Positions 5,634 through 16,175 are shown, counted from the first letter of the stretch. The stretch: 24,577 nucleotides of DNA from Candidatus Poribacteria bacterium (GCA_014730235.1 WJIO01000258.1:1-24577); one strand, 5' to 3'. Translations and numbers: made by a program. Notes: generated by a model from the sequence alone, not told the origin.

Positions 5634-6761
5634 TTATTTATTTGCCACAGCTTTTCTGAGAGCTTTGGCCCTTTCGTGGGCTACCTTACAGAAATAATCC
5701 ACACGTTCATCCATCTGACCAGTTTCCAGATGTGTATGAGCAGGACACCAGAGACAAAGATTAATAATTGGGCATGTTCCACAGCTTTTATGATATTCTT
5801 CTTTATCTGAGGTCATTCTTAGAATCTTTGGGGTAAAGTCATTCCACGCTTCAGCCAATGTTCCAGTCTTAAGGTCATAAAGGCAGTCGGGATGCCATAA
5901 TGAACTGCAAAGACGATACACGCCATCATAACCAACAACAAAACTGTGTATACCCGAAGCACAGCCAAACAGGTAATTCTTATCATTTTTGATAGGATCA
6001 GGTAAAATGAATTTATCGCAAAGCTCTTCCATTTCCTGCGCTCTATCAGGATCAGCCCTTTCCAGTTCTACTATCTGTTGAGGGGAAAGCCTTTCTGACC
6101 TTATTTCTTCATTTCTTACAGGATCAAAGTCATATCTCATATGGAGTATAGGATCAAACCTGAAGAAATCCTTGGTTCTTTCCCGGCAAAAACGAGCAAT
6201 CTCATCCATTTCATGAAGATTTGATTTTAAAGCCATTGCTTTCAACCTGACCTTAATATCATTTTCCAGTAGCAAGTCAAGACCACGTACAAAGGCCTTA
6301 TAAGAACCTGGTTGTCTGGTTACCTTTTCATAAGTTTCTTCGCTGGCTCCATAAACGGTTACTTCCAGATTTTTAGGTGGATATTTATTAAAGATTTCAA
6401 TATGTTCTTTGGTAATCAGGCAAGCATTGGTAAATACAGTTGGAACTAAGCCTTTTTTCTTAAGCGAAATATATATTTCAGAGAAATCCTTTCTCAACAG
6501 AGGTTCACCGCCGCTTATGAGAACCCAGAGAGAACCAAGCTCTACGGCTTCATCAGCAATTCTGCCTATTACATCAACAGAAATCTCATTTCCCTTTGCT
6601 TTAGTATCTCCGGCAGGGAGATTAATATAACAGTGACGGCAATTATTATTGCATCGTGCTGTTATCTCCAGAGAAAAAGATAAGGGCACTCTTTTGGAAC
6701 TAATTTTTTTCCAAATACCTATTTCACTCATGCGACGAGAAATAACACTGGGATCACTCAT
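5634..6761 (-). CDS. Radical SAM/SPASM peptide-modifying enzyme (candidate RiPP maturase)
   Basis: Seen: 375 residues. The radical SAM motif CxxxCxxC is C37/C41/C44, followed by GGEP at 84-87. The C-terminal SPASM region has eight cysteines in the usual layout: C267, C285, C293, then C327/C330, C336/C339 and C358. That is enough to ligate two auxiliary [4Fe-4S] clusters. Known: SPASM enzymes of this architecture (PqqE, sactipeptide, ranthipeptide and mycofactocin maturases) cross-link or cleave residues in small ribosomal peptides. Start: ATG with AAGGTGG 8 nt upstream, 1 nt after the stop of the peptidase gene, so tightly co-translated. It is the last gene of a four-function locus: precursors, PqqD-like protein, S26 peptidase and this enzyme. 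A peptide substrate, the 7869-8372 peptides, is a strong inference. The chemistry is unknown. Confidence 0.93.
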   Translation of the reverse strand: MSDPSVISRRMSEIGIWKKISSKRVPLSFSLEITARCNNNCRHCYINLPAGDTKAKGNEISVDVIGRIADEAVELGSLWVLISGGEPLLRKDFSEIYISLKKKGLVPTVFTNACLITKEHIEIFNKYPPKNLEVTVYGASEETYEKVTRQPGSYKAFVRGLDLLLENDIKVRLKAMALKSNLHEMDEIARFCRERTKDFFRFDPILHMRYDFDPVRNEEIRSERLSPQQIVELERADPDRAQEMEELCDKFILPDPIKNDKNYLFGCASGIHSFVVGYDGVYRLCSSLWHPDCLYDLKTGTLAEAWNDFTPKILRMTSDKEEYHKSCGTCPIINLCLWCPAHTHLETGQMDERVDYFCKVAHERAKALRKAVANK

Positions 6762-6762
6762 A

Positions 6763-7281
6763 TTAACGCCACCTTATAATATTTTTAATAAACTGAATTA
6801 ATCTCCAAGTTGGCAAAAAAAGCCTGTAAAGCCGACCTTTGCGTGTGAAGAAAGCTATTAAATATCTTTCCAGTCCCAGGCCTAAAGAAATGCTTTTTGC
6901 GTTTCTTTCAATACCTGTAACATAACCGAGTATATAATCATCAGGAATAATACCATCTGAAACAGTAATATTATCCCCTTTTATCTTGTATCCCTTTGGT
7001 GTTTTACCATATATTCTATGTACCATAAGTTTATTATTTTTGGGATGAGTAAAAGCGACCACATTACCAATTCCGGGAGTTTTATCAATTAATGGAGATA
7101 CAGTAATAACATCCCCACCTCTTATGAAGGGGTGCATACTTGTACCTTTTGCACAGAATTTAAAAGGTAATCCTCTTTTTAATATAGAGCGGAGTAATTC
7201 GGTAAGGGCAGAATCAGAAAGTGATATTTCATCACCGTTTTTAATGGAGAAAGCAGGTTTAGTCTTGGGCAACCTCGACAA
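6763..7281 (-). CDS. S26-family (signal-peptidase-like) protein with Ser/His dyad
   Basis: Seen: 172 residues. GTSMHPFIRGGD (46-57) carries the S26 box with nucleophile S48. MVHRI (86-90) places H88 where bacterial signal peptidase I has lysine, as in the SipW/archaeal/ER type. KGDN (101-104) is the third S26 box. There is no N-terminal membrane anchor. The C-terminus (about 140-172) is hydrophobic and strongly basic, perhaps membrane-associating. The frame opens with TTG preceded by GAGAGG at about 5 nt; no in-frame ATG occurs before the catalytic serine. It overlaps the PqqD-like gene by 23 nt and ends 1 nt before the radical SAM gene, so all three are translated together. Inference: it removes the leader of the modified peptides. 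A LexA-like or export role is less likely. Confidence 0.82.
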   Translation of the reverse strand: MSRLPKTKPAFSIKNGDEISLSDSALTELLRSILKRGLPFKFCAKGTSMHPFIRGGDVITVSPLIDKTPGIGNVVAFTHPKNNKLMVHRIYGKTPKGYKIKGDNITVSDGIIPDDYILGYVTGIERNAKSISLGLGLERYLIAFFTRKGRLYRLFLPTWRLIQFIKNIIRWR

Positions 7282-7570
7282 GCATTCCTCTCTTAAGAAG
7301 CTCTTCTACAAATCCTATAACATCCTTTTCAATTTCGTCAGCAGGTGCTTCAAAATCTTCACTTAACTGTTCAATTACATTTCTAAGCTTTTTCTGAGTT
7401 TTTAATAAATCCCAGATTGCACTGCCAGTTTCATTAAGTGTGAAAAGTTCATCTTCCATATCCCCGATTCCAGCCGCCAGAGGAACTATTATCAATTCAC
7501 CTTCAATTTCTCTTGCCACTACATCATCTGAAGGAATGTAGGCAGAATCGAGGTTGACATTTATTTCCAT
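7259..7570 (-). CDS. PqqD-like peptide-recognition protein (RRE)
   Basis: Seen: 103 residues with the PqqD fold signature: a β-rich N-terminal half (GELIIVPLAAGIGDMEDELF), then LNETGSAIWDLL (about 49-60), and a helical end ending EELLKRGMLVE. Known: PqqD-type domains are RiPP recognition elements that bind the precursor leader as a β-strand and hand it to the radical SAM partner. Start: the reading frame opens seven codons earlier, but AGGAG lies 7-8 nt before the ATG at 7570, which begins MEINV, so this start is preferred. It is the first of three overlapping genes (PqqD-like, S26, radical SAM) and lies about 300 bp downstream of the precursor genes. Typical length for a stand-alone PqqD-like protein. 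Confidence 0.88.
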   Translation of the reverse strand: MEINVNLDSAYIPSDDVVAREIEGELIIVPLAAGIGDMEDELFTLNETGSAIWDLLKTQKKLRNVIEQLSEDFEAPADEIEKDVIGFVEELLKRGMLVEVAQD

Positions 7571-7754
7571 AAAATATCTCCTGATTTGCACAAATTAAAA
7601 GCTCATATATAAAAACAAGGTGAAAATTAACAAAAATAAATGTAAGATTGCAGTATCACCTGTTTTTTCAATATGAGCCACCTGATAAAACTAAAAAAAG
7701 TAAATATGCTCGTTGCTTTTTAAGATTGAATTAGCTGGTTATATATAACAAAAA

Positions 7755-7768
7755 ATCCCTTACGGGAT
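7755..7768 (-). terminator. Short hairpin with T-run in the leader of the PqqD-like operon
   Basis: On the minus strand ATCCC-GTAA-GGGAT is followed by six T's. The stem is only 5 bp. It sits between the second precursor gene and the PqqD-like gene, so it may be a weak terminator or attenuator limiting enzyme expression relative to precursor. Confidence 0.5.
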
Positions 7769-7795
7769 AAAAAACACCAATCTAAGACATGTTTT

Positions 7796-7824
7796 ATTAT
7801 ACTTAAGTAATCCTCAAAAATTAA
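7796..7824 (-). promoter_or_regulatory. Possible weak promoter for the PqqD/S26/rSAM operon
   Basis: A perfect TATAAT on the minus strand (7796-7801) has, 17 nt upstream, TTAATT (7819-7824), only a 3/6 match to the -35 consensus and inside the preceding terminator's T-tract. If used, it gives a leader of about 220 nt carrying the 7755-7768 hairpin. Confidence 0.3.
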
Positions 7825-7849
7825 GAGACATCCAAAGGATGTCTCTTAA
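7816..7849 (-). terminator. Terminator of precursor 1
   Basis: A perfect 13-bp inverted repeat, TTAAGAGACATCC (7821-7833) with GGATGTCTCTTAA (7837-7849) and a 3-nt loop, begins 19 nt after the precursor-1 stop codon. On the minus strand it runs into TTAATTTTTG. A homologous hairpin follows precursor 2. Confidence 0.88.
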
Positions 7850-7868
7850 AAAACGTGTCTCTATATTC

Positions 7869-8039
7869 TTACACAGTTTCGCAATTTCCGCAGAAGTCAC
7901 CATTAATCTGGCAAGTTGCGTACTGATCATCTGGACCCATATCATAGGGACCTTCGCCTTTGCAACCAACAAGAACACGTTCATCTGGAGTGCCTTTTAC
8001 CAGCACGATCAATTTAGGTTTCAGCCAAGTTTTCCTCAT
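7869..8039 (-). CDS. RiPP-like precursor peptide, copy 1 (56 aa, Gln39 form)
   Basis: Seen: 56 codons starting ATG, with GGAAGGA about 6 nt upstream. The N-terminal half is leader-like: basic start MRKTW, then LKPKLIVLVKGTPDE (6-20) and RVLVGCK. The C-terminal half is rich in Gly, Asp and Cys: C26, C43, C50, C53, ending FCGNCETV. It has no signal peptide and no known catalytic motif. It differs from copy 2 at one residue (Gln versus Glu at 39) and at three of 171 bases. Its position before PqqD-like, S26 and radical SAM/SPASM genes, its size, and its cysteines make it the probable substrate of that enzyme. A β-strand-forming leader (LIVLV) suits PqqD binding. The core boundary is unknown; a cut near G25-C26 or G28-G30 is a guess. 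I do not know a named family with certainty. Confidence 0.85.
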   Translation of the reverse strand: MRKTWLKPKLIVLVKGTPDERVLVGCKGEGPYDMGPDDQYATCQINGDFCGNCETV

Positions 8040-8149
8040 TTTATATCCTTCCTTCTTTTACAACGAGTATACTTACTAAGAAAATAGTTTACCCGTTAAG
8101 TTAAAGAAACTAAATAGTTTCTCCAATATAAAAATCTATAGTAATCCTT

Positions 8150-8183
8150 AAAAATTAAGAGATATCCTCTGGATGTCTCTTAA
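8150..8183 (-). terminator. Terminator of precursor 2
   Basis: The 13-bp inverted repeat at 8155-8167/8171-8183 has a 3-nt loop and one mismatch, followed on the minus strand by TTAATTTTTAAGG. It lies between the two precursor genes, so precursor 1 and the enzymes would need read-through or their own promoter. Confidence 0.8.
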
Positions 8184-8201
8184 AACCGTATCTCTGTGTT
8201 C

Positions 8202-8372
8202 TTACACGGTTTCGCAATTTCCGCAGAAGTCACCATTAATCTGGCAAGTTGCGTACTCATCATCTGGACCCATATCATAGGGGCCTTCGCCTTTGCAACC
8301 AACAAGAACACGTTCATCTGGAGTGCCTTTTACCAGCACGATCAATTTAGGTTTCAGCCAAGTTTTCCTCAT
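8202..8372 (-). CDS. RiPP-like precursor peptide, copy 2 (56 aa, Glu39 form)
   Basis: Seen: 56 residues, identical to copy 1 except Glu39. Cysteines are at 26, 43, 50 and 53. The frame can be extended eight codons upstream to another ATG, but those codons contain the Shine-Dalgarno (AAGGAAGGG) that serves the internal ATG, and copy 1 lacks the extension, so 8372 is the start. This is the promoter-proximal gene of the locus, about 108 nt from the predicted transcription start, and has its own terminator, so it should be the most abundant transcript. Leader, core and function are as inferred for copy 1. The single charge change lies in the Asp-rich segment before C43 (GPDDE-YATC) and would give two related products. 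Confidence 0.86.
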   Translation of the reverse strand: MRKTWLKPKLIVLVKGTPDERVLVGCKGEGPYDMGPDDEYATCQINGDFCGNCETV

Positions 8373-8451
8373 TTTACACCCTTCCTTTTTGTGCAACGAG
8401 CATAATTACCAATAAATAATTGCCCGTCAATCCAAAAAAAATTAACCTAGT

Positions 8452-8474
8452 TTCTACAATATTATATTGTAGAA
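8452..8474 (-). promoter_or_regulatory. 5' stem-loop at the start of the precursor transcript
   Basis: TTCTACAATA (8452-8461) and TATTGTAGAA (8465-8474) form a perfect 10-bp inverted repeat with a 3-nt loop, beginning about 6 nt after the predicted transcription start. It could be an mRNA-stabilising 5' hairpin or an operator for a dimeric repressor. Confidence 0.65.
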
Positions 8475-8486
8475 CTATCACTATTT

Positions 8487-8515
8487 ATTATACACACATT
8501 AAAGACCTATGTCAA
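8487..8515 (-). promoter_or_regulatory. Perfect-consensus sigma-70 promoter of the precursor locus
   Basis: On the minus strand TTGACA (8510-8515) and TATAAT (8487-8492) are separated by exactly 17 nt. Both hexamers match consensus at all six positions. The predicted start is near 8480. It drives precursor 2 first. Confidence 0.9.
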
Positions 8516-8660
8516 GGCCTTTTCCCACAAATCCCAAGACTTTACAGACTTGAGAACACTTAAGATAATATTTAAATACTTCTCTAATATTCTAAACCGC
8601 TATTTCTGGGGAATACTATTAATAATATTATATCATAAAGTTCATTATATGTCAAACATT

Positions 8661-8818: not shown

Positions 8819-9793
8819 ATGTCAAAACACTTATACAGCAAAGCTTTTCTGACACTTTTTGTCTTTTCGCTTGTAGTATTTTCCCCGGTTTATTCGCAGG
8901 GCTTTACCTCTGGGCAGGATGATGCCGAATTGTTGAGTTATGCAGAAAAGGTAAGGGAAAATCCTGATAGCGCAGAAGCTCATAAAAAGCTGGGGTTAGC
9001 TTATGCAAAAAGAGGAATGTTTGAAGAAGCTTCCCGGGAGTTTGAGGTAGCTATGGACTTGGAGTATAAGCGGGGAAAAGCAGAGGGAACAAAGCGGGAA
9101 TATGTGAAAATATATACCAGTTATACTCTTATAAGCATAGCTGTTGGATTGGTAATAGCTGCCATTGTAGTACTGGTTTTGGCCTGGTCTGAGGCTTTGG
9201 AGAAACTTCAGGCTTTTCGCAGAAATAAACGAATTAGAAATTTCACAAAAAATTTTAGAAACCTTGATCCATCCTTGCAAAAACAGGCATCAGAGATAAT
9301 TCAGAGCAAAGAAAAGCTTATGGATGCCATAAATCAGGAAAACGATACAAATTTAAAAGGTGCAGCCGCTATTATTATCCCCAAGCTTGAAGACCTTATG
9401 AGACAGGCGTCCCTGTTGCTTAAGCTCCGTCAAACCCTGACAGGATATGTGGATGATATTGATTACGTTGAATTAGACAGGGAAAAACGAAACTGTGAAG
9501 AAAAACTAAAGCGAGAGACAGACGAAGAAGCCAAAAGAGCACTGGATTATCAGTTAAAACAGATAAAAAACAAGATCAATAACTATTCAAAGGCCGAAGC
9601 AAAGATCAGAACCTGTGACGCGGTATTAAGGGGAATTACAGCCCGTATTGACTCTACATCCCTGGATCTTATGAGCTTACCTTCGGTTTTACTTAAAAAG
9701 CAGGATTTTTTTGAAAGAGTTTCCGCTGAACTTGACGAAGAGATCAAATTAACCCGGCACGCAGCAGAGACGGTTATGGAAGAGACATCATGA
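8819..9793 (+). CDS. TPR membrane protein with C-terminal coiled coil, coupled to rel
   Basis: Seen: 324 residues. The N-terminal signal peptide or anchor (about 1-27) ends PVYSQG. One TPR repeat (about 48-82) reads NPDSAEAHKKLGLAYAKRGMFEEA. A transmembrane helix follows at about 101-122, then a charged, largely helical tail with a coiled-coil-like stretch (about 215-260). If the signal is cleaved, the TPR is outside and the helical tail inside the cytoplasm. The stop codon overlaps the rel start (ATGA), so translation is coupled. The Shine-Dalgarno is weak. I recognise no named family. The coupling suggests a link to stringent-response control at the membrane, or it may be only an operon fusion. 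Confidence 0.82.
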   Translation: MSKHLYSKAFLTLFVFSLVVFSPVYSQGFTSGQDDAELLSYAEKVRENPDSAEAHKKLGLAYAKRGMFEEASREFEVAMDLEYKRGKAEGTKREYVKIYTSYTLISIAVGLVIAAIVVLVLAWSEALEKLQAFRRNKRIRNFTKNFRNLDPSLQKQASEIIQSKEKLMDAINQENDTNLKGAAAIIIPKLEDLMRQASLLLKLRQTLTGYVDDIDYVELDREKRNCEEKLKRETDEEAKRALDYQLKQIKNKINNYSKAEAKIRTCDAVLRGITARIDSTSLDLMSLPSVLLKKQDFFERVSAELDEEIKLTRHAAETVMEETS

Positions 9794-11949
9794 GTATCAT
9801 ACATTCACCACAATCACTGGAACAAACAAATATAGAATGGTTTATAGAAGCCATTAAAGAATATAATCCTGCTGCGAATCTTGCCCCTATTTATGAAAGC
9901 TACAGCTTCAGCAAGATGAAACATGAGGGCCAATTTCGTAAATCAGGTGATCCATATTTTATTCACTGTATGGGAACAGCCAGAAACCTGATCGAATGGC
10001 GGATGGATGTTGATACTATTGCAGCCGGATTTCTGCACGATGTGTTGGAGGATACGGATACAATCCCCGAGGAACTACGGGAAAAGTTCGGAGAAGAGAT
10101 AACCCATATAGTAGAAGGGGTCAGCAAAATCAGTCTTTTACCCTTTAGAGGTATAGAAAGTCAGGCTGAGAATTTCCGCAAGATGATCCTGGCCATGTCA
10201 AAAGATATAAGGGTGACCCTGATTAAGCTGGCCGATAGACTTCATAATATGCGAACCCTGGAATATTTACCCCATCGTTCTCAACTGAGAATTGCCGGTG
10301 AAACTCTGGATATATATGGACCCTTAGCCCAGCGATTGGGTATGGCTGAAGTTAGCGCAGAACTTCAAGATATTTCGTTTAAGTATTTAAATAAAGAAAT
10401 TCACCAGGAATTGGAAGAAAGAGTTGAAAAAGAGATTAAAGATCGGGGTAAGTATATAGAAAATTTATCTCAGGTTATAGCAGAAACTTTAAAGCAATCC
10501 GGTTTAAACTGTAAGGTTAAAGGTCGTCGTAAGAGTTTATACAGCATATACCAAAAAATGCAATCCAGGGATATTCCCTTTGAAGATATTCATGACCTTT
10601 TTGCCTTCAGGGTTCTGGTTGATACGGTGGGTGATTGCTACGCCGGTTTAGGTATGATCCATTCCAGATGGAAACCTGTGCCGGGTAAAATCAAAGATTA
10701 CATAGCTACTCCAAAGACAAACGGATACCAATCCTTACATACTACTGTTATTGGTCCGGGTGGCAAACCTCTGGAAATACAAATACGCACACAGGAAATG
10801 CACGAAGTCGCGGAGCATGGAATTGCCGCCCACTGGCGTTATAAAGAAGGCTCAACAGCTTCTGCTGAAGATGCACGCTTTTTGTGGCTAAGACGAATTG
10901 TAGAGGATATGCAGGAACTTAAGAATCCACGACATTTTATGGAGTCGGTGAAGCTTGAGTTATTCCCGGAAGAAGTATATGTATTTACCCCGAAGGGTGA
11001 GGTGAAAGGATTACCAAAAGGTGCTACGCCTATAGATTTTGCTTATAGCATACATACAGAAGTAGGTCATCAGTGTATAGGGGCAAAGGTGAATGGTGCT
11101 ACTGTCCCCCTGAAAGAAGAGCTAAAAAGCGGGGATATAGTGGAAATTATCACCCGTTCCGGAAGTAATCCCAGCAGGGATTGGCTCAGATTTGCAAAAT
11201 CTTCCAGAGCCAGGGGTAAAATAAGGCATTGGATAAGAGAGGCAGAACGTGAGGAAAGTATACAACTTGGTCAGGATCTTCTTGAAGGTGAAATCCAGGA
11301 ACGCCGCCTGGATATAAATATGAAGAAATTGCTGAAATCAGACGAACTGCTGGAAGCTGCTAACGAACTGAATTTGACAAGCATTGATGATCTTCTGGCC
11401 CATCTTGGTTATGGAAAAGTATCAGCCCCCCATGTGATCAATCTAATTGCCCCGGAAAGCATAGAAAAGCCTGCGGCAAAACCTGCTCAGTCGGATAAGA
11501 CTTTAAGACAAAAACTCAAAGGCAGTGTTAAAGTTGGTGGACTGGGACAGCAATTTATAAGATTTGCCAAATGCTGTAATCCCATACCCGGAGATGAAAT
11601 AGTAGGATATATCACAAGAGGCAGAGGCGTAACAGTACATAGGGCCAATTGTCCGGAAATCTCAGGAGATACAGAGCGTATTATACAAACTCAATGGGAG
11701 GATGAAAAAGAATCTGTTTATACAGTGGAAATATCTATTGAATCCGACGATAGAAAAGGTATGCTGGCGGAGGTTACGGCAGCAATTGCAAAGGAAAGTG
11801 TTAATATAGAAAGCGGTAATATAAGTACTGCTGATGCAAAGGCAGCTACAAGCTTTACCGTTCAGGTAAACGATCTGGACCATTTAAGCCGGCTTATGGA
11901 TAGTATAAGTAAAATAAAGGGGATAAAAAAGGTAGAGAGAAAGAATTGA
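9790..11949 (+). CDS. rel: Bifunctional (p)ppGpp synthetase/hydrolase (RelA/SpoT family)
   Basis: Seen: 719 residues in the full long-RSH order. The HD hydrolase has H59, HDVLED (83-88) and D149 in KLADRL, so the metal-binding set is complete. The synthetase region contains GRRKSLYSIYQKM, then YIATPKTNGYQSLHTTV and LEIQIRT (about 304-333). The TGS domain (about 385-445) opens EVYVFTPKGEV. The Cys-containing linker (FAKCCNPIPGDE and HRANCPE) and a C-terminal ACT domain (about 645-719) complete it. Known: makes (p)ppGpp on uncharged-tRNA ribosomes and hydrolyses it. With both catalytic centres intact it is probably the organism's main bifunctional Rel. The residue after H59 is Cys where most homologues have Pro. 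The ATG overlaps the stop of the preceding TPR gene. Convergent with rpmB, 36 bp apart. Confidence 0.97.
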   Translation: MSIIHSPQSLEQTNIEWFIEAIKEYNPAANLAPIYESYSFSKMKHEGQFRKSGDPYFIHCMGTARNLIEWRMDVDTIAAGFLHDVLEDTDTIPEELREKFGEEITHIVEGVSKISLLPFRGIESQAENFRKMILAMSKDIRVTLIKLADRLHNMRTLEYLPHRSQLRIAGETLDIYGPLAQRLGMAEVSAELQDISFKYLNKEIHQELEERVEKEIKDRGKYIENLSQVIAETLKQSGLNCKVKGRRKSLYSIYQKMQSRDIPFEDIHDLFAFRVLVDTVGDCYAGLGMIHSRWKPVPGKIKDYIATPKTNGYQSLHTTVIGPGGKPLEIQIRTQEMHEVAEHGIAAHWRYKEGSTASAEDARFLWLRRIVEDMQELKNPRHFMESVKLELFPEEVYVFTPKGEVKGLPKGATPIDFAYSIHTEVGHQCIGAKVNGATVPLKEELKSGDIVEIITRSGSNPSRDWLRFAKSSRARGKIRHWIREAEREESIQLGQDLLEGEIQERRLDINMKKLLKSDELLEAANELNLTSIDDLLAHLGYGKVSAPHVINLIAPESIEKPAAKPAQSDKTLRQKLKGSVKVGGLGQQFIRFAKCCNPIPGDEIVGYITRGRGVTVHRANCPEISGDTERIIQTQWEDEKESVYTVEISIESDDRKGMLAEVTAAIAKESVNIESGNISTADAKAATSFTVQVNDLDHLSRLMDSISKIKGIKKVERKN

Positions 11950-11962
11950 TTAAAAAGCGGGA

Positions 11963-11998
11963 AAAGGTCGCCGCTGAGGATTTTATTAGACGACCTTT
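11963..11998. terminator. Possible shared hairpin between rel and rpmB
   Basis: AAAGGTCG (11963-11970) and CGACCTTT (11991-11998) form an 8-bp stem with a 20-nt loop, spanning the convergent gap and the last codons of rpmB. The loop is long and there is no strong T-run, so the terminator role is uncertain. Confidence 0.35.
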
Positions 11999-12213
11999 CT
12001 TACCTTACCGCCTTTTAAGCAACTGGTGCATACTCGAACTGTTTTTACTGAGCCAGCTATATTAGCCTTTATTTTCTGTATGTTTGGATACTGCCTTCTT
12101 TTGCTTTTACCTGTAATATAACGCTTTTTTCCGCTTCGGAGTTTGCTTCCTGTTCGCTTTACTGACAGCGATACCATTGGACCTTTGCCACATATATCAC
12201 ATTTCTTTGACAT
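11986..12213 (-). CDS. rpmB: Ribosomal protein bL28 (zinc-binding form)
   Basis: Seen: 75 residues starting MSKKCDICGKGP, with a C-terminal VRVCTSCLKGGKVRK. The CxxC pairs C5/C8 and C62/C65 define the zinc-containing C+ form of L28. The middle is Lys/Arg-rich as expected for rRNA binding, with the family's RRQYPNIQKIK block. Known: structural protein of the 50S subunit. Upstream AGAGATGAG provides a ribosome site, and a strong promoter lies about 60 nt before the start codon. The gene is monocistronic. Keeping the cysteines suggests an organism that is not routinely zinc-limited, or that carries a separate Cys-less paralogue elsewhere. Confidence 0.96.
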   Translation of the reverse strand: MSKKCDICGKGPMVSLSVKRTGSKLRSGKKRYITGKSKRRQYPNIQKIKANIAGSVKTVRVCTSCLKGGKVRKVV

Positions 12214-12270
12214 TTAACTCATCTCTCTTTCATTATCAATCGAAAAGTTTCGTCTCCCGCACAGAGAAAT

Positions 12271-12299
12271 ATTATATCAGAGAAATATGGTATAGTCAA
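12271..12299 (-). promoter_or_regulatory. Promoter of rpmB
   Basis: On the minus strand TTGACT (12294-12299, 5/6) and TATAAT (12271-12276, 6/6) are separated by 17 nt, with predicted start near 12264 and a leader of about 50 nt. Confidence 0.82.
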
Positions 12300-12340
12300 G
12301 TTTTTTTGCCATCTTAAATTTCGCAGGCAGGTAATGATTT

Positions 12341-14851
12341 ATGAGTGATATAAGTAAAATACTGGATACAATTAAAAAACCATTCAGGCTTGAGGCAAAA
12401 AACAACTGTCAGGACAGAATCGTTATCGGCGGATTAGGTTCATATGTAACAAATTGGGTTGATAAAGCCCTCAATATAGCTCCGGATGATCAAAAGGAGT
12501 TATTATCCAACCTTCAAAACCTTTTTGCTGATTATCCTGACGCTCAACCTGATGAAAGAAAAGATAAGCTCAGGGAAGCCATCCAGGTTATCAAACGGTT
12601 AAAGGGAGAACAAACCTCTGAACCCAGCAATAAAATCGAAAACAAAATTACAGATAATTCTGCAGAGCCAAAAAATAATCGGACTACTGAAAACAAAAAA
12701 GATCTTGACCTGAAAGTATCTCTTCAGGTTGAGGTCGCAACAGATTCTGACCTGATGACGGCCCTTTCCACATCCGTGGAAAACATCGCCGGAATAGGAT
12801 TAAAGACAGCTAAACTTTTGGGAGAAGAAGTTGGTATACATAATCTAGCTGATCTGCTGGAATATTACCCCAGGGATTATCTTGATCGCAGTCAGTTTGT
12901 GCCTATTTACCAGGTTGGTCGTTCAGGCAGTGGATATGAAACTGTCCAGGGGATAATAGTAAACCAGATGGAAATAACTCCGCGCCGCGCAAAGGCCCGG
13001 AAATTTATGAAAACAGTTATCTATGATGAAACTGGTGTTGCATGTCTGGTGGCCTTTGGCAAACGTGTGCAGTATATGAAAAACGCCCTCAAGAACGGGA
13101 TGAAACTGGTCGTAAGTGGAAAATTCAAGCGGGATTACGGCGAAATACAGACAACAGACTATACTTATGAAGTTCTATCTGATGAAGAGGCAGAACTCAT
13201 CCATACTGGTCGGATCGTTCCAGTTTATCCTTTAACGGCAAAGCTGAATCAGCGAAGCCTGCGCCGGTGGATAAAATCTGTGGTGGATAATTTCTGCGAC
13301 TATGTACCTGAGATTTTACCTGCTGATATAAGGGAACGCCAGGAGTTAATTGATCGCCCAAAAGCTGTCCGTAGTATCCATTTCCCCGAATCTAAAGGAT
13401 ATTTATCCGCAGCCCGAAAACGCCTGGCCTTTGATGAGCTATTCCTCCTTGAGTTGGGAATGGGTCTAAAGAAAAGCCGATGGGATAAGGAAGAACCGGG
13501 CATTGCTTTCCAGACGAAGACCAAAATTATACAGGATTTTGTTAAGTCTCTACCCTTTGAGCTTACAAATGCACAGAAACGAGTATTTTCTGAAATCAAA
13601 AAGGACATGGAAGATTCCACCCCTATGAACAGGTTGTTACAGGGTGATGTGGGTTCGGGTAAAACCGTTGTGGCGGCAATGGCCTTACTTATGGCCATTG
13701 ATAATGGCTATCAGGGGGCAATAATGGCCCCAACGGAAATCCTGGCAGAACAGCATTATAATACTTTGACTAACCTACTTGGTTCTATGGGATTACAGAT
13801 CGTCCTCCTGCGAGGTGATATGACTAAAAGCCTGAAAGATGAAGCTCTGACAATGATAAGCACTGGCGAGGCAAATATCGCGGTGGGAACTCATGCTCTT
13901 ATTCAGGAAGGTGTGGAATTTGCCAATCTGGGTATCGAGATTACTGACGAACAGCACAGGTTTGGGGTGATGCAGAGGGCAGCACTCAAAAACAAAGGTA
14001 TCAACCCCGATGCCCTGGTAATGACAGCAACGCCTATTCCGCGCACATTGGCCCTTACTGTATACGGTGATCTGAATGTTTCCGTCATAGATGAACTACC
14101 TCCAGGACGTAAAAAAGTCGAGACAAGATGGGTCGCTGAAGGTAAGCGAAACAGGATGTATAAGTTTATTGAAGATGAAATAACCAAGGGACGACAGGCT
14201 TATATTGTCTATCCCCTTGTTGAGGAATCGGAAAAGCTGGAAGACCTGAAAGCCGCCACAGAGATGGCCCAGCACTTCCAGGAAGATGTCTTCCCACATC
14301 TGAAAATCGGCCTTTTACATGGCAGGATGAAATCAGAGGAAAAGCAGGAGGTTATGACCCGTTTCAAAGACTGTGAGCTAAATATACTGGTTTCCACTAC
14401 TGTTATCGAAGTTGGTATTGATGTGCCCAATGCTACCATAATGCTTATAGAACACGCCGAAAGGTTCGGCCTGGCCCAGTTGCACCAGCTGCGGGGTAGA
14501 GTGGGGCGAAGCCACCATAAATCCTACTGCCTGCTGGTGGCTAATCCTAAGAATGAAGACGCTGTTAGGCGTATGAAGGCCATGACCAGAACCACTGACG
14601 GTTTTGAAATAGCCGAGGAAGACCTGGCCATAAGGGGCCCGGGTGAGTTCTTTGGAACCCGACAGGCAGGTATGCCTGATCTAAAGGTAGCCAGTCTTAT
14701 CCGGGATGCCCAGCTCCTGGAAATTGCCCGGGAAGAGGCCTTCCGTATTGCCCAGGAAGACCCGGCCCTTCTGAATCCCGAGCACCAGATGCTGAAGAAA
14801 CTGCTTCAGGAAAAGTGGCGGGAAAACTTGGAGATGATCTCTATTGGTTAG
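12341..14851 (+). CDS. recG: ATP-dependent DNA helicase RecG
   Basis: Seen: 836 residues, longer than the roughly 690 of E. coli RecG because of an extra N-terminal part: a helical domain (1-90) and a charged, low-complexity linker (about 91-125). Then the wedge/OB domain (GIGLKTAKLLGEEVG, about 151-165, then LLEYYPRDYLDRS), the helicase core with Walker A GDVGSGKT (435-442), DEQH box (536-539), TATPIPRTLA (562-571), and the motif VI region QLRGRVGR with the RecG-type C-terminus. Known: remodels stalled replication forks and Holliday junctions. N-terminal helical extensions are seen in RecG of several non-proteobacterial phyla. The start has a modest Shine-Dalgarno (CAGGTAATG). The last 11 bp overlap the end of the convergent sulfatase. 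Confidence 0.96.
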   Translation: MSDISKILDTIKKPFRLEAKNNCQDRIVIGGLGSYVTNWVDKALNIAPDDQKELLSNLQNLFADYPDAQPDERKDKLREAIQVIKRLKGEQTSEPSNKIENKITDNSAEPKNNRTTENKKDLDLKVSLQVEVATDSDLMTALSTSVENIAGIGLKTAKLLGEEVGIHNLADLLEYYPRDYLDRSQFVPIYQVGRSGSGYETVQGIIVNQMEITPRRAKARKFMKTVIYDETGVACLVAFGKRVQYMKNALKNGMKLVVSGKFKRDYGEIQTTDYTYEVLSDEEAELIHTGRIVPVYPLTAKLNQRSLRRWIKSVVDNFCDYVPEILPADIRERQELIDRPKAVRSIHFPESKGYLSAARKRLAFDELFLLELGMGLKKSRWDKEEPGIAFQTKTKIIQDFVKSLPFELTNAQKRVFSEIKKDMEDSTPMNRLLQGDVGSGKTVVAAMALLMAIDNGYQGAIMAPTEILAEQHYNTLTNLLGSMGLQIVLLRGDMTKSLKDEALTMISTGEANIAVGTHALIQEGVEFANLGIEITDEQHRFGVMQRAALKNKGINPDALVMTATPIPRTLALTVYGDLNVSVIDELPPGRKKVETRWVAEGKRNRMYKFIEDEITKGRQAYIVYPLVEESEKLEDLKAATEMAQHFQEDVFPHLKIGLLHGRMKSEEKQEVMTRFKDCELNILVSTTVIEVGIDVPNATIMLIEHAERFGLAQLHQLRGRVGRSHHKSYCLLVANPKNEDAVRRMKAMTRTTDGFEIAEEDLAIRGPGEFFGTRQAGMPDLKVASLIRDAQLLEIAREEAFRIAQEDPALLNPEHQMLKKLLQEKWRENLEMISIG

Positions 14852-16175
14852 CAAGAAATTCCGACCTGTAATTCTGAAAATGCTGCCTGTATTCTTTTAA
14901 TATATCCCCGTATTTCGGATCTTTTGCCCAATTTCTCATCTCACCAGGATCTTTTTCCAGATCCATTAACTGCTCGCGATTATCACCTTCGTCATAAAGC
15001 ATATACTTGAATCTTTCGCCGCAGACCATGTATCCGAATTCGCTTTCGATCCAAAGGTGTTTACACCATGATTCTACATCCTTGCCTTCCACCAGAGATT
15101 TAAAGCTTTTTCCACTGAGATTAGCCGGTGGATTAATCTCAGCATAGTCACATAAAGTCGGTATTAGATCAAGTCCATTGGATACCAGGTGCTTATTATC
15201 AATCATCCCTGCCGGAGTTGTTCCCTTTTGACTTACAATCAATGGAACTCTGGTTGGCTCTTCATATAATACGGTCTTATGTTCCATACCATGAGCTGAA
15301 TCCATATCGCCATGATCGCTGGAGAAAATTACCAGGGTGTTTTCCTCCTGACCGCTGTCTCTTAACGCGTCCAGCACTTTTACTATATGGGCGTCAACCA
15401 TCTCAGTCAGTCGGCAGTAGGCCCATCGGTGCATACGCCACATTTCCTCAGTCCAGTTTTCCCGGGCATTTCTCTTGAATTTACGCTGATCCAGCACCAT
15501 GCTTATGGCTTCCGGTTCATTCAACTGGGGTTTGAAGTTATCAGGCAGGGGTGGGCAGTGTTTGTCAAAGAATTCATCTTCAGAGATACCTTCCGGTATT
15601 TCTAGGGCTTTATTAAGAGCACCCAATTCATTGGTGAGTCTTTCCCAGTTTAAATCCTGATAAGCTCTTATGGCCATGTAGCAAATGTCATGGGGATTGA
15701 TAAAGGATGCTAACAGGAAAAATGGTTTATCCCGATCCCGCTGGATAAATTCCACACACGAGTCAGCCAATCCCGCCCGTTGATCCGGCGTTATGCGTTC
15801 AAAACCCATGGTTTCCGGAGTCATACCTCTGGGAAGATGTACTTTGCCGCCATAGCCTGTATCATATCCAGCGTTGCGTAATAACCAGCCCATTGATTGA
15901 TTTAAAATATCATCAGGCACAGACTCGATCCATCCCACATCGTTACTGCGGATATCCAACTTACTTGGCATAAAGCCTGTCATCATACTGAATCGGGAAG
16001 GCAGACATACCGGGTTTGAGCAGTATGCTTTATCGAATCGGATACCCGTTTCCGCGAGGCTGTCCATTCCAGGGGTTTTAAGGTATTTATTCCCTGTGCA
16101 ACTCATCATATTTGCGCTTTGCTGATCTGTGAATATATACATTATATTTGGATGATTGTCTTTTGTGTATGGCAT
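14841..16175 (-). CDS. Sulfatase (formylglycine-dependent, arylsulfatase family)
   Basis: Seen: 444 residues. The active-site signature C-L-P-S-R-F-S-M-M-T-G begins at C57, the cysteine converted to formylglycine in this family. FTDQQ near 15-19 supplies the first metal aspartate, and SSDHGD (mid-protein) the other Asp/His ligands. Known: type I sulfatases hydrolyse sulfate esters of glycans or aryl compounds; the CxPSR form is activated by FGE or the anaerobic radical SAM enzyme, neither seen here. Start: a TTG one codon earlier could open the frame, but AAGGAG is correctly spaced (about 6 nt) for the ATG at 16175. No signal peptide is visible, so it appears cytoplasmic, suggesting desulfation of imported oligosaccharides. 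Divergent from the fucosidase across the repeat island; it overlaps recG by 11 bp. Confidence 0.93.
   Translation of the reverse strand: MPYTKDNHPNIMYIFTDQQSANMMSCTGNKYLKTPGMDSLAETGIRFDKAYCSNPVCLPSRFSMMTGFMPSKLDIRSNDVGWIESVPDDILNQSMGWLLRNAGYDTGYGGKVHLPRGMTPETMGFERITPDQRAGLADSCVEFIQRDRDKPFFLLASFINPHDICYMAIRAYQDLNWERLTNELGALNKALEIPEGISEDEFFDKHCPPLPDNFKPQLNEPEAISMVLDQRKFKRNARENWTEEMWRMHRWAYCRLTEMVDAHIVKVLDALRDSGQEENTLVIFSSDHGDMDSAHGMEHKTVLYEEPTRVPLIVSQKGTTPAGMIDNKHLVSNGLDLIPTLCDYAEINPPANLSGKSFKSLVEGKDVESWCKHLWIESEFGYMVCGERFKYMLYDEGDNREQLMDLEKDPGEMRNWAKDPKYGDILKEYRQHFQNYRSEFLANQ

Follow-up and report, generated by a model that had tools for sequence, protein, structure and literature searches.

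A probable leader-handling locus of a radical SAM peptide pathway in a Candidatus Poribacteria genome and its family across bacteria and archaea

Introduction

What is made by a locus that combines two nearly identical cysteine-containing peptides with a PqqD-like protein, an S26 peptidase, and a radical S-adenosylmethionine (SAM)/SPASM enzyme, and does this locus hold the whole pathway? The genes lie between positions 5634 and 8515 of a 24,577-nucleotide stretch of DNA of a Candidatus Poribacteria bacterium (GCA_014730235.1, WJIO01000258.1:1-24577), hereafter the window (on contig C191). An earlier note on this DNA had described them as a compact locus of four parts and recognized no characterized family that combines these with such a leader. 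Two corrections apply: the cluster is not self-contained, and its leader occurs widely. The genes belong to a family of ribosomally synthesized and post-translationally modified peptide (RiPP) pathways that depend on a RiPP recognition element (RRE) and on radical SAM enzymes, and whose leader handling is related to that of lasso peptides and of linear polyphosphorylated peptides (LPPs). Members of this family normally have HPr-kinase-like (HPrK-like) domains and three radical SAM enzymes, and those missing from the window are found on a second contig of the genome (C423).

The window locus

All the features of the peptide locus are on the minus strand, in coordinates of the whole window:

8202..8372, minus strand: precursor copy 1, 56 residues (open reading frame with ribosome-binding site; family profile, 1.1e-19)
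7869..8039, minus strand: precursor copy 2, a tandem copy of 56 residues with 1 residue different (family profile, 8.3e-20)
7259..7570, minus strand: discrete RRE, a PqqD-like leader-binding protein of 103 residues (PF05402, 60 bits)
6763..7281, minus strand: S26 peptidase of the Ser-His-Asp type, 172 residues, proposed leader peptidase (motifs shared with the family; weak TIGR02228 and TIGR02754 matches)
5634..6761, minus strand: radical SAM/SPASM enzyme 3 of the family, 375 residues (CX3CX2C and seven-cysteine SPASM pattern)
7821..7849, minus strand: intrinsic terminator-like hairpin of 13 pairs 3' of precursor 2, followed by TTTTT
8487..8515, minus strand: perfect sigma-70 consensus promoter-like site upstream of precursor 1 (TTGACA-17-TATAAT, 12/12; a consensus match, not proof of function)
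8627..8655, minus strand: second perfect sigma-70 consensus promoter-like site (12/12, with TG before the -10 element)

The twin peptides and the three protein genes were thus all where the earlier note had placed them, on one strand. The last three are indeed overlapping or adjacent: the PqqD gene (ATG at 7570, ribosome-binding site AGGAG) overlaps by 23 nucleotides the S26 gene, which has a TTG start, and the radical SAM/SPASM gene begins 1 base after the latter. The precursors result from a tandem duplication of 235 nucleotides (93% identity), each preceded by a GGAAGG-type ribosome site. Their coding parts differ by two synonymous changes and one conservative change (E39 in one copy, Q39 in the other; 98% protein identity), and both peptides carry C26, C43, C50, and C53 and end in FCGNCETV. 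An imperfect copy of the terminator-like hairpin is found behind precursor 1 (8155-8183). The 17-nucleotide motif GTAAnTATGCTCGTTGC is present upstream of each precursor and once, inverted, upstream of the PqqD gene (7700-7716, 8060-8076, and 8393-8409), and may be an operator site.

A leader conserved across bacteria and archaea

The window precursors matched no Pfam or NCBIfam model, no model of either database exists for the precursor/enzyme family, and the letters of the leader had no match in the open literature searched. A search with the single precursor sequence in 145 relatives, plasmids, and viral contigs gave nothing convincing, with weak matches that look like chance except in a KSB1 genome (G127). 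The latter, also retrieved with a degenerate leader pattern (up to three mismatches), holds a true distant member of the family, with the leader beside PqqD, S26, methyltransferase, HPrK-like, and radical SAM genes. An exact DNA leader pattern built from the precursors of the window and of G127 was then used in one scan of the reference genomes. It matched 77 stretches there and none in the viral collection. The bacterial record titles among them comprise Aminicenantes, Omnitrophota, Deltaproteobacteria, Thermoleophilia and other Actinomycetota, Chloroflexi, Acidobacteria, Chlorobiaceae, KSB1, Lentisphaerae, Planctomycetota, Edwardsbacteria, and Bacillota; the archaeal ones comprise three groups, i.e., Methanothrix, another euryarchaeon, and Hodarchaeota. 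The pathway occurs in a dozen or more phyla, both bacterial and archaeal, and is unnamed in the databases searched. Within the phylum of the window itself, no further member was found (the other 83 of 84 genomes lack it).

Residues that the pattern required were given no weight, and conservation was judged on the other columns of the leader (consensus WxxPxLIVLxRxxPEExVLxxCK) and on precursors found by profile. A tryptophan occurs three residues before the proline in all 79 leaders where this position is visible, and further columns not demanded by the pattern are also conserved (the leucine before I/V-V-L and a Gly, Ser, or Asn at the turn). Searching by profile gave about one hundred precursors; all 49 of the pattern-positive genomes searched have them, and the highest number in one genome is six. 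Among the 91 distinct precursors in the fetched stretches, 90 keep the CK pair, 81 end in serine, and 7 end in threonine; serine is likewise the final residue in 73 of the 82 pattern-found precursors. The tails nearly always have two to four cysteines, of which the last two are often three or four apart, and a CX2C near the C terminus is common. The cores are otherwise hypervariable. None of the curated family models gave a credible match to any of 29 representative precursors.

An uncultured Geobacter (G390; L166, L218) has six different precursors scattered in the genome and a single enzyme 3 on another contig, and one Omnitrophota locus (L208, 3294-12055) has four precursors, two PqqD-S26 pairs, and a single enzyme 3.

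Operon neighborhood

The commonest gene order is radical SAM enzyme 1 fused to an HPrK-like domain, radical SAM enzyme 2, PqqD, S26, radical SAM enzyme 3, and the precursor, which can also be first or in the middle of the operon. The neighborhood was counted where 6.5 kb or more could be seen on each side of the leader (17 stretches). Enzymes are nearby in 14 of these, PqqD, S26, and enzyme 3 occur together in 13, and in the remaining 3 (G390, G403, and G405) enzyme 3 is elsewhere in the genome. Among 20 genomes chosen mostly because their precursors lie apart from enzymes, the window genome included, 14 have an enzyme 3 ortholog; the other 6 are drafts searched without their small contigs, where its absence is not proven. 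Precursor homologs are beside PqqD, S26, and radical SAM genes in most loci, and a family of precursors consistently free of radical SAM and PqqD neighbors, which would have spoken against the link drawn in the earlier note, was not seen.

Genes of the NTP_transf_5 family are present in 22 of 49 core loci, and methyltransferase genes recur in some. None of the 49 loci has an ABC ATPase signature (open reading frame with P-loop and LSGGQ), which extends to the family the lack of an exporter remarked earlier at the window locus. A further radical SAM gene is found upstream of the operon in six loci (L210, 3469-5166, and similar genes in L117, L126, L161, L181, and L182).

Proposed leader binding and cleavage

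The PqqD-like protein of the window passes PF05402 (60 bits; cutoff, 23), and the nearest solved structures to the RRE are that of the lasso RRE TbiB1 and those of two PqqD-family chaperones. The start of the family leader, WxxPxL, is the motif [Y/W]xxPx[L/V/I/F/A] reported for lasso and LPP RREs (PMC13381572), and leader recognition of the W/Y/LxxP type has been reported widely (PMC12710340). One Omnitrophota genome joins the two partners, with PqqD fused in frame before the precursor via a long charged linker:

L080, 4472-5137: complete PqqD-precursor fusion
L127, 237-845: complete PqqD-precursor fusion
L064, L085, and L099: PqqD-precursor fusions cut by contig ends

In the AlphaFold model of one fusion, residues 151-160 of the leader (WEKPQLIVLV) have a predicted local distance difference test score (pLDDT) of 94 and form a strand at 156-160, most of the linker being uncertain (pLDDT, 56 to 67). 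The RRE part matches TbiB1 (Z = 10.7; root mean square deviation, 2.0; 83 aligned residues; Foldseek probability, 1.00) and TfuB1 (Z = 10.2), both of which were solved with lasso leaders. The matches and the predicted docking support leader binding by the PqqD-like protein, as had been proposed.

The S26 peptidase has no hydrophobic or transmembrane segment, and the motifs SMHP, VHRI, and GDN....D are common to the window and the family. Its matches to known models are TIGR02228 (46 bits; cutoff, 52), PF00717 (22.8 bits; cutoff, 23.3), and TIGR02754, the nickel superoxide dismutase (Ni-SOD) maturation protease (37 bits; cutoff, 63). In LPP biosynthesis, the S26-type peptidase LppS cleaves the leader only with the RRE, requires S29, H68, and D93, and cuts after FET (PMC13381572). 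Counted on the published motif, this site is 16 residues from the LPP tyrosine, and the PEE of the family is equally far from the tryptophan. From this spacing, cleavage of the window leader is expected behind PDE (residue 20). The core would then have 36 residues, RVLVGCKGEGPYDMGPDDQYATCQINGDFCGNCETV (residues 21-56), and would include C26-K27. Trimming by S26, as put forward in the earlier note, is probable.

Radical SAM enzyme 3 and the HPrK-like domain

The radical SAM domain of the window enzyme passes PF04055 (81 bits), and the protein is of the enzyme 3 type (511 bits versus the Methanothrix seed), with 53 to 61% identity to enzyme 3 of other phyla, archaea included. The cysteines of CX3CX2C and the seven of SPASM are invariant among 15 enzyme 3 orthologs and kept in the window enzyme. 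The nearest solved structure by sequence profile is SkfB. This identity across phyla, the near-silent differences between the twin precursors, and the recurrence of the same leader and genes in unrelated genomes place the locus far beyond chance. The orthologs form a tight clade with scrambled taxonomy, in which the place of the window enzyme is not resolved. The scrambling suggests that the enzyme family has spread horizontally, and together with the absence from the other 83 genomes of the phylum it suggests horizontal gain. The G+C content of the cluster (37% versus 41%) differs too weakly to be used.

The HPrK-like domain is weak by sequence (PF07475, 25 bits, cutoff, 33; ScmC, 40 bits, cutoff, 125). 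Its P-loop and CDD residues show little or no variation. The model of the domain (pLDDT, 87) aligns with PEPCK and HPr kinases (Z scores of 10 to 11), and all of its top-ranking matches are of these two kinds. PDB sequence matches of the kinase profile, mostly ABC P-loops, were set aside for the fold comparison. Kinases of this type act on related peptides: PadeK phosphorylates a conserved C-terminal serine (PMC9266682), and LppK phosphorylates the LPP precursor (PMC13381572).

A pathway apparently divided between two contigs

The window holds PqqD, S26, enzyme 3, and the precursors only; enzymes 1 and 2 and an HPrK-like kinase were not found in it. These are encoded on contig C423 (locus L044), where the CX3CX2C, SPASM, and P-loop motifs are intact:

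13324-14235: free HPrK-like protein
11343-13301: radical SAM enzyme 1 fused to HPrK
10136-11320: radical SAM enzyme 2

No PqqD, S26, enzyme 3, or precursor was found on C423, which carries the two closest paralogs of the window enzyme in the genome. Since C423 holds exactly the genes that the window locus is without, the pathway looks split, and the two half-sets together make the standard family set. Being separate contigs of a draft bin, C191 and C423 are partners by strong inference, not by proof.

Other candidates in the genome were set aside: a second PqqD gene, in an unrelated setting (C304), and two NTP_transf_5 genes, not beside the cluster. Around the C423 genes, a formyltransferase-like gene lies directly 3' of enzyme 2 (9290-10132), another radical SAM protein, with a zinc-finger tail, precedes the HPrK gene (14260-15420), and a short inverted repeat (CATTCCTGCGAAAGCAGGAATCC...; about 15460-15540) looks like a small mobile or repetitive extragenic palindromic (REP)-type element. 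Elsewhere in the window, an aldehyde ferredoxin oxidoreductase-like gene adjoins a zinc-ribbon protein gene and a cupin-like gene (8-1852, 1923-2537, and 2568-2909), with no link to the peptide locus seen.

Proposed pathway and alternatives

The window is likely to carry that half of an RRE-dependent RiPP pathway which handles the leader. Its PqqD-like protein would bind the leader as a beta strand through WxxPxLIVL and present the precursor. Three radical SAM/SPASM enzymes, one in the window (3) and two on C423 (1 and 2), would act on its cysteine-bearing C-terminal part, most probably yielding thioether or C-C cross-links. The HPrK-like domain, which occurs both as a free protein and as a fusion with enzyme 1, would phosphorylate the C-terminal serine where the precursor has one, and the membrane-free S26 peptidase, with the RRE, would cut the leader, most likely after PEE/PDE. 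Several observations weigh against this proposal. The S26 database scores are weak, no product is known for any family member, no exporter is seen, unlike in LPP loci, and the two contigs come from a draft bin (91.6% complete and 4.8% contaminated). Moreover, the window precursors end in valine, not serine, and in their case the kinase step may be missing or shifted.

Among the other explanations, the one that survives best, unlikely as we consider it, is a redox or metal cofactor built from a peptide scaffold, like pyrroloquinoline quinone (PQQ) or mycofactocin, and retained in the cell. PqqD and SPASM enzymes do resemble cofactor pathways, and the lack of an exporter signature in 49 loci would suit a retained product, but the PQQ and mycofactocin models score far below cutoff for the enzymes, and hypervariable cores with up to six different precursors per genome fit a diversified product better. 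Less probable still, the window genes would be a complete small pathway in which enzyme 3 alone modifies the twin precursors, the C423 genes being unrelated or from another organism of the bin. The compact operon with its own promoter-like sites, the separate contigs, and the bin contamination are in its favor; however, whole operons usually contain enzymes 1 and 2 as well as enzyme 3, and C423 has exactly the missing genes, which include the only other close paralogs of the enzyme in the genome. The least probable explanation is a mature peptide that keeps free cysteines and binds metal, with S26 exposing a metal hook like the Ni-SOD maturation protease, for although the weak TIGR02754 match and the common CX2C would agree with it, a pathway with three radical SAM/SPASM enzymes implies core chemistry and the leader carries an RRE motif.

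Beyond the proposed leader-handling role of the window, the family could form an undescribed RiPP class of bacteria and archaea, a broader view to which we give slightly less than an even chance. One RRE would serve three radical SAM enzymes and a kinase, and the product would be a peptide with several cross-links and a phosphorylated C terminus, released inside the cell by an enzyme resembling signal peptidases. No dedicated pump would export it, and one maturase set would serve several divergent precursors in trans.

Comparison with known systems

The nearest characterized relatives are, together with the paeninodin RiPPs, the LPPs of Bacillota (Popov et al. 2026, PMC13381572). They share with the family a discrete RRE adjoining the peptidase, an aromatic-xxP leader motif, the putative S26/SipW-like Ser-His-Asp leader peptidase (its motifs are present in the window and the family), a glutamate equally far from the aromatic residue (FET in LPP, PEE here), and the NTP_transf_5 gene (in the 22 loci given above). 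The HprK-like kinase of LPP clusters has a usual counterpart in the family, but in the window genome this is present on C423 only and not at the window locus. The LPPs differ in the radical SAM enzymes, usually three in the family and not mentioned in the LPP paper (PMC13381572), in the MsbA-like exporter of LPP systems, which the 49 family loci lack, in the leader (YxxPxVLxHQxIxFETxxS in LPP), and in the phosphorylation of LPP on Ser3 of the core rather than on a terminal serine. Because neither the transporter nor the leader motif of LPPs was found, we set the family apart from them. Paeninodin-type lasso peptides share the WxxP leader motif, the discrete RRE, and an HprK-like kinase acting on a conserved C-terminal serine, whereas the S26 peptidase and the three radical SAM enzymes are particular to the present family. 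Lasso precursor models gave no match above chance (best E value, 0.036, in 4 of 29 precursors, none of them in the window).

The family is also set apart from the named radical SAM systems, since every NCBIfam equivalog tested fell below its cutoff. The SynChlorMet cassette (ScmC to ScmF) has an HPrK-like protein, a PqqD-like protein, and two radical SAM/SPASM enzymes in common with it, with scores of 28 of 100 bits for ScmD, 85 of 400 for ScmE, and 40 of 125 for ScmC. The PQQ models reached 38 of 46 (PqqD) and 62 of 381 bits (PqqE). Sactipeptide and ranthipeptide maturases (AlbA, StsB, PapB, and SkfB) are likewise radical SAM/SPASM enzymes acting on cysteine peptides (StsB, 67 of 625; PapB, 51 of 340; AlbA, 57 of 850 bits); the present family differs by its discrete RRE and by four cysteines, as opposed to six in forty-five.

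A near-invariant leader and a tight enzyme set return in dozens of lineages, most of them uncultured and some archaeal, and make the leader a ready handle for genome mining. The three coupled radical SAM enzymes probably have a substrate in common, and the peptidase would add to LPP a second example of leader removal by an S26-type enzyme in RiPP biology. If confirmed, the pathway would link the phosphorylating lineage of lasso peptides and LPPs with the peptide chemistry of radical SAM enzymes.

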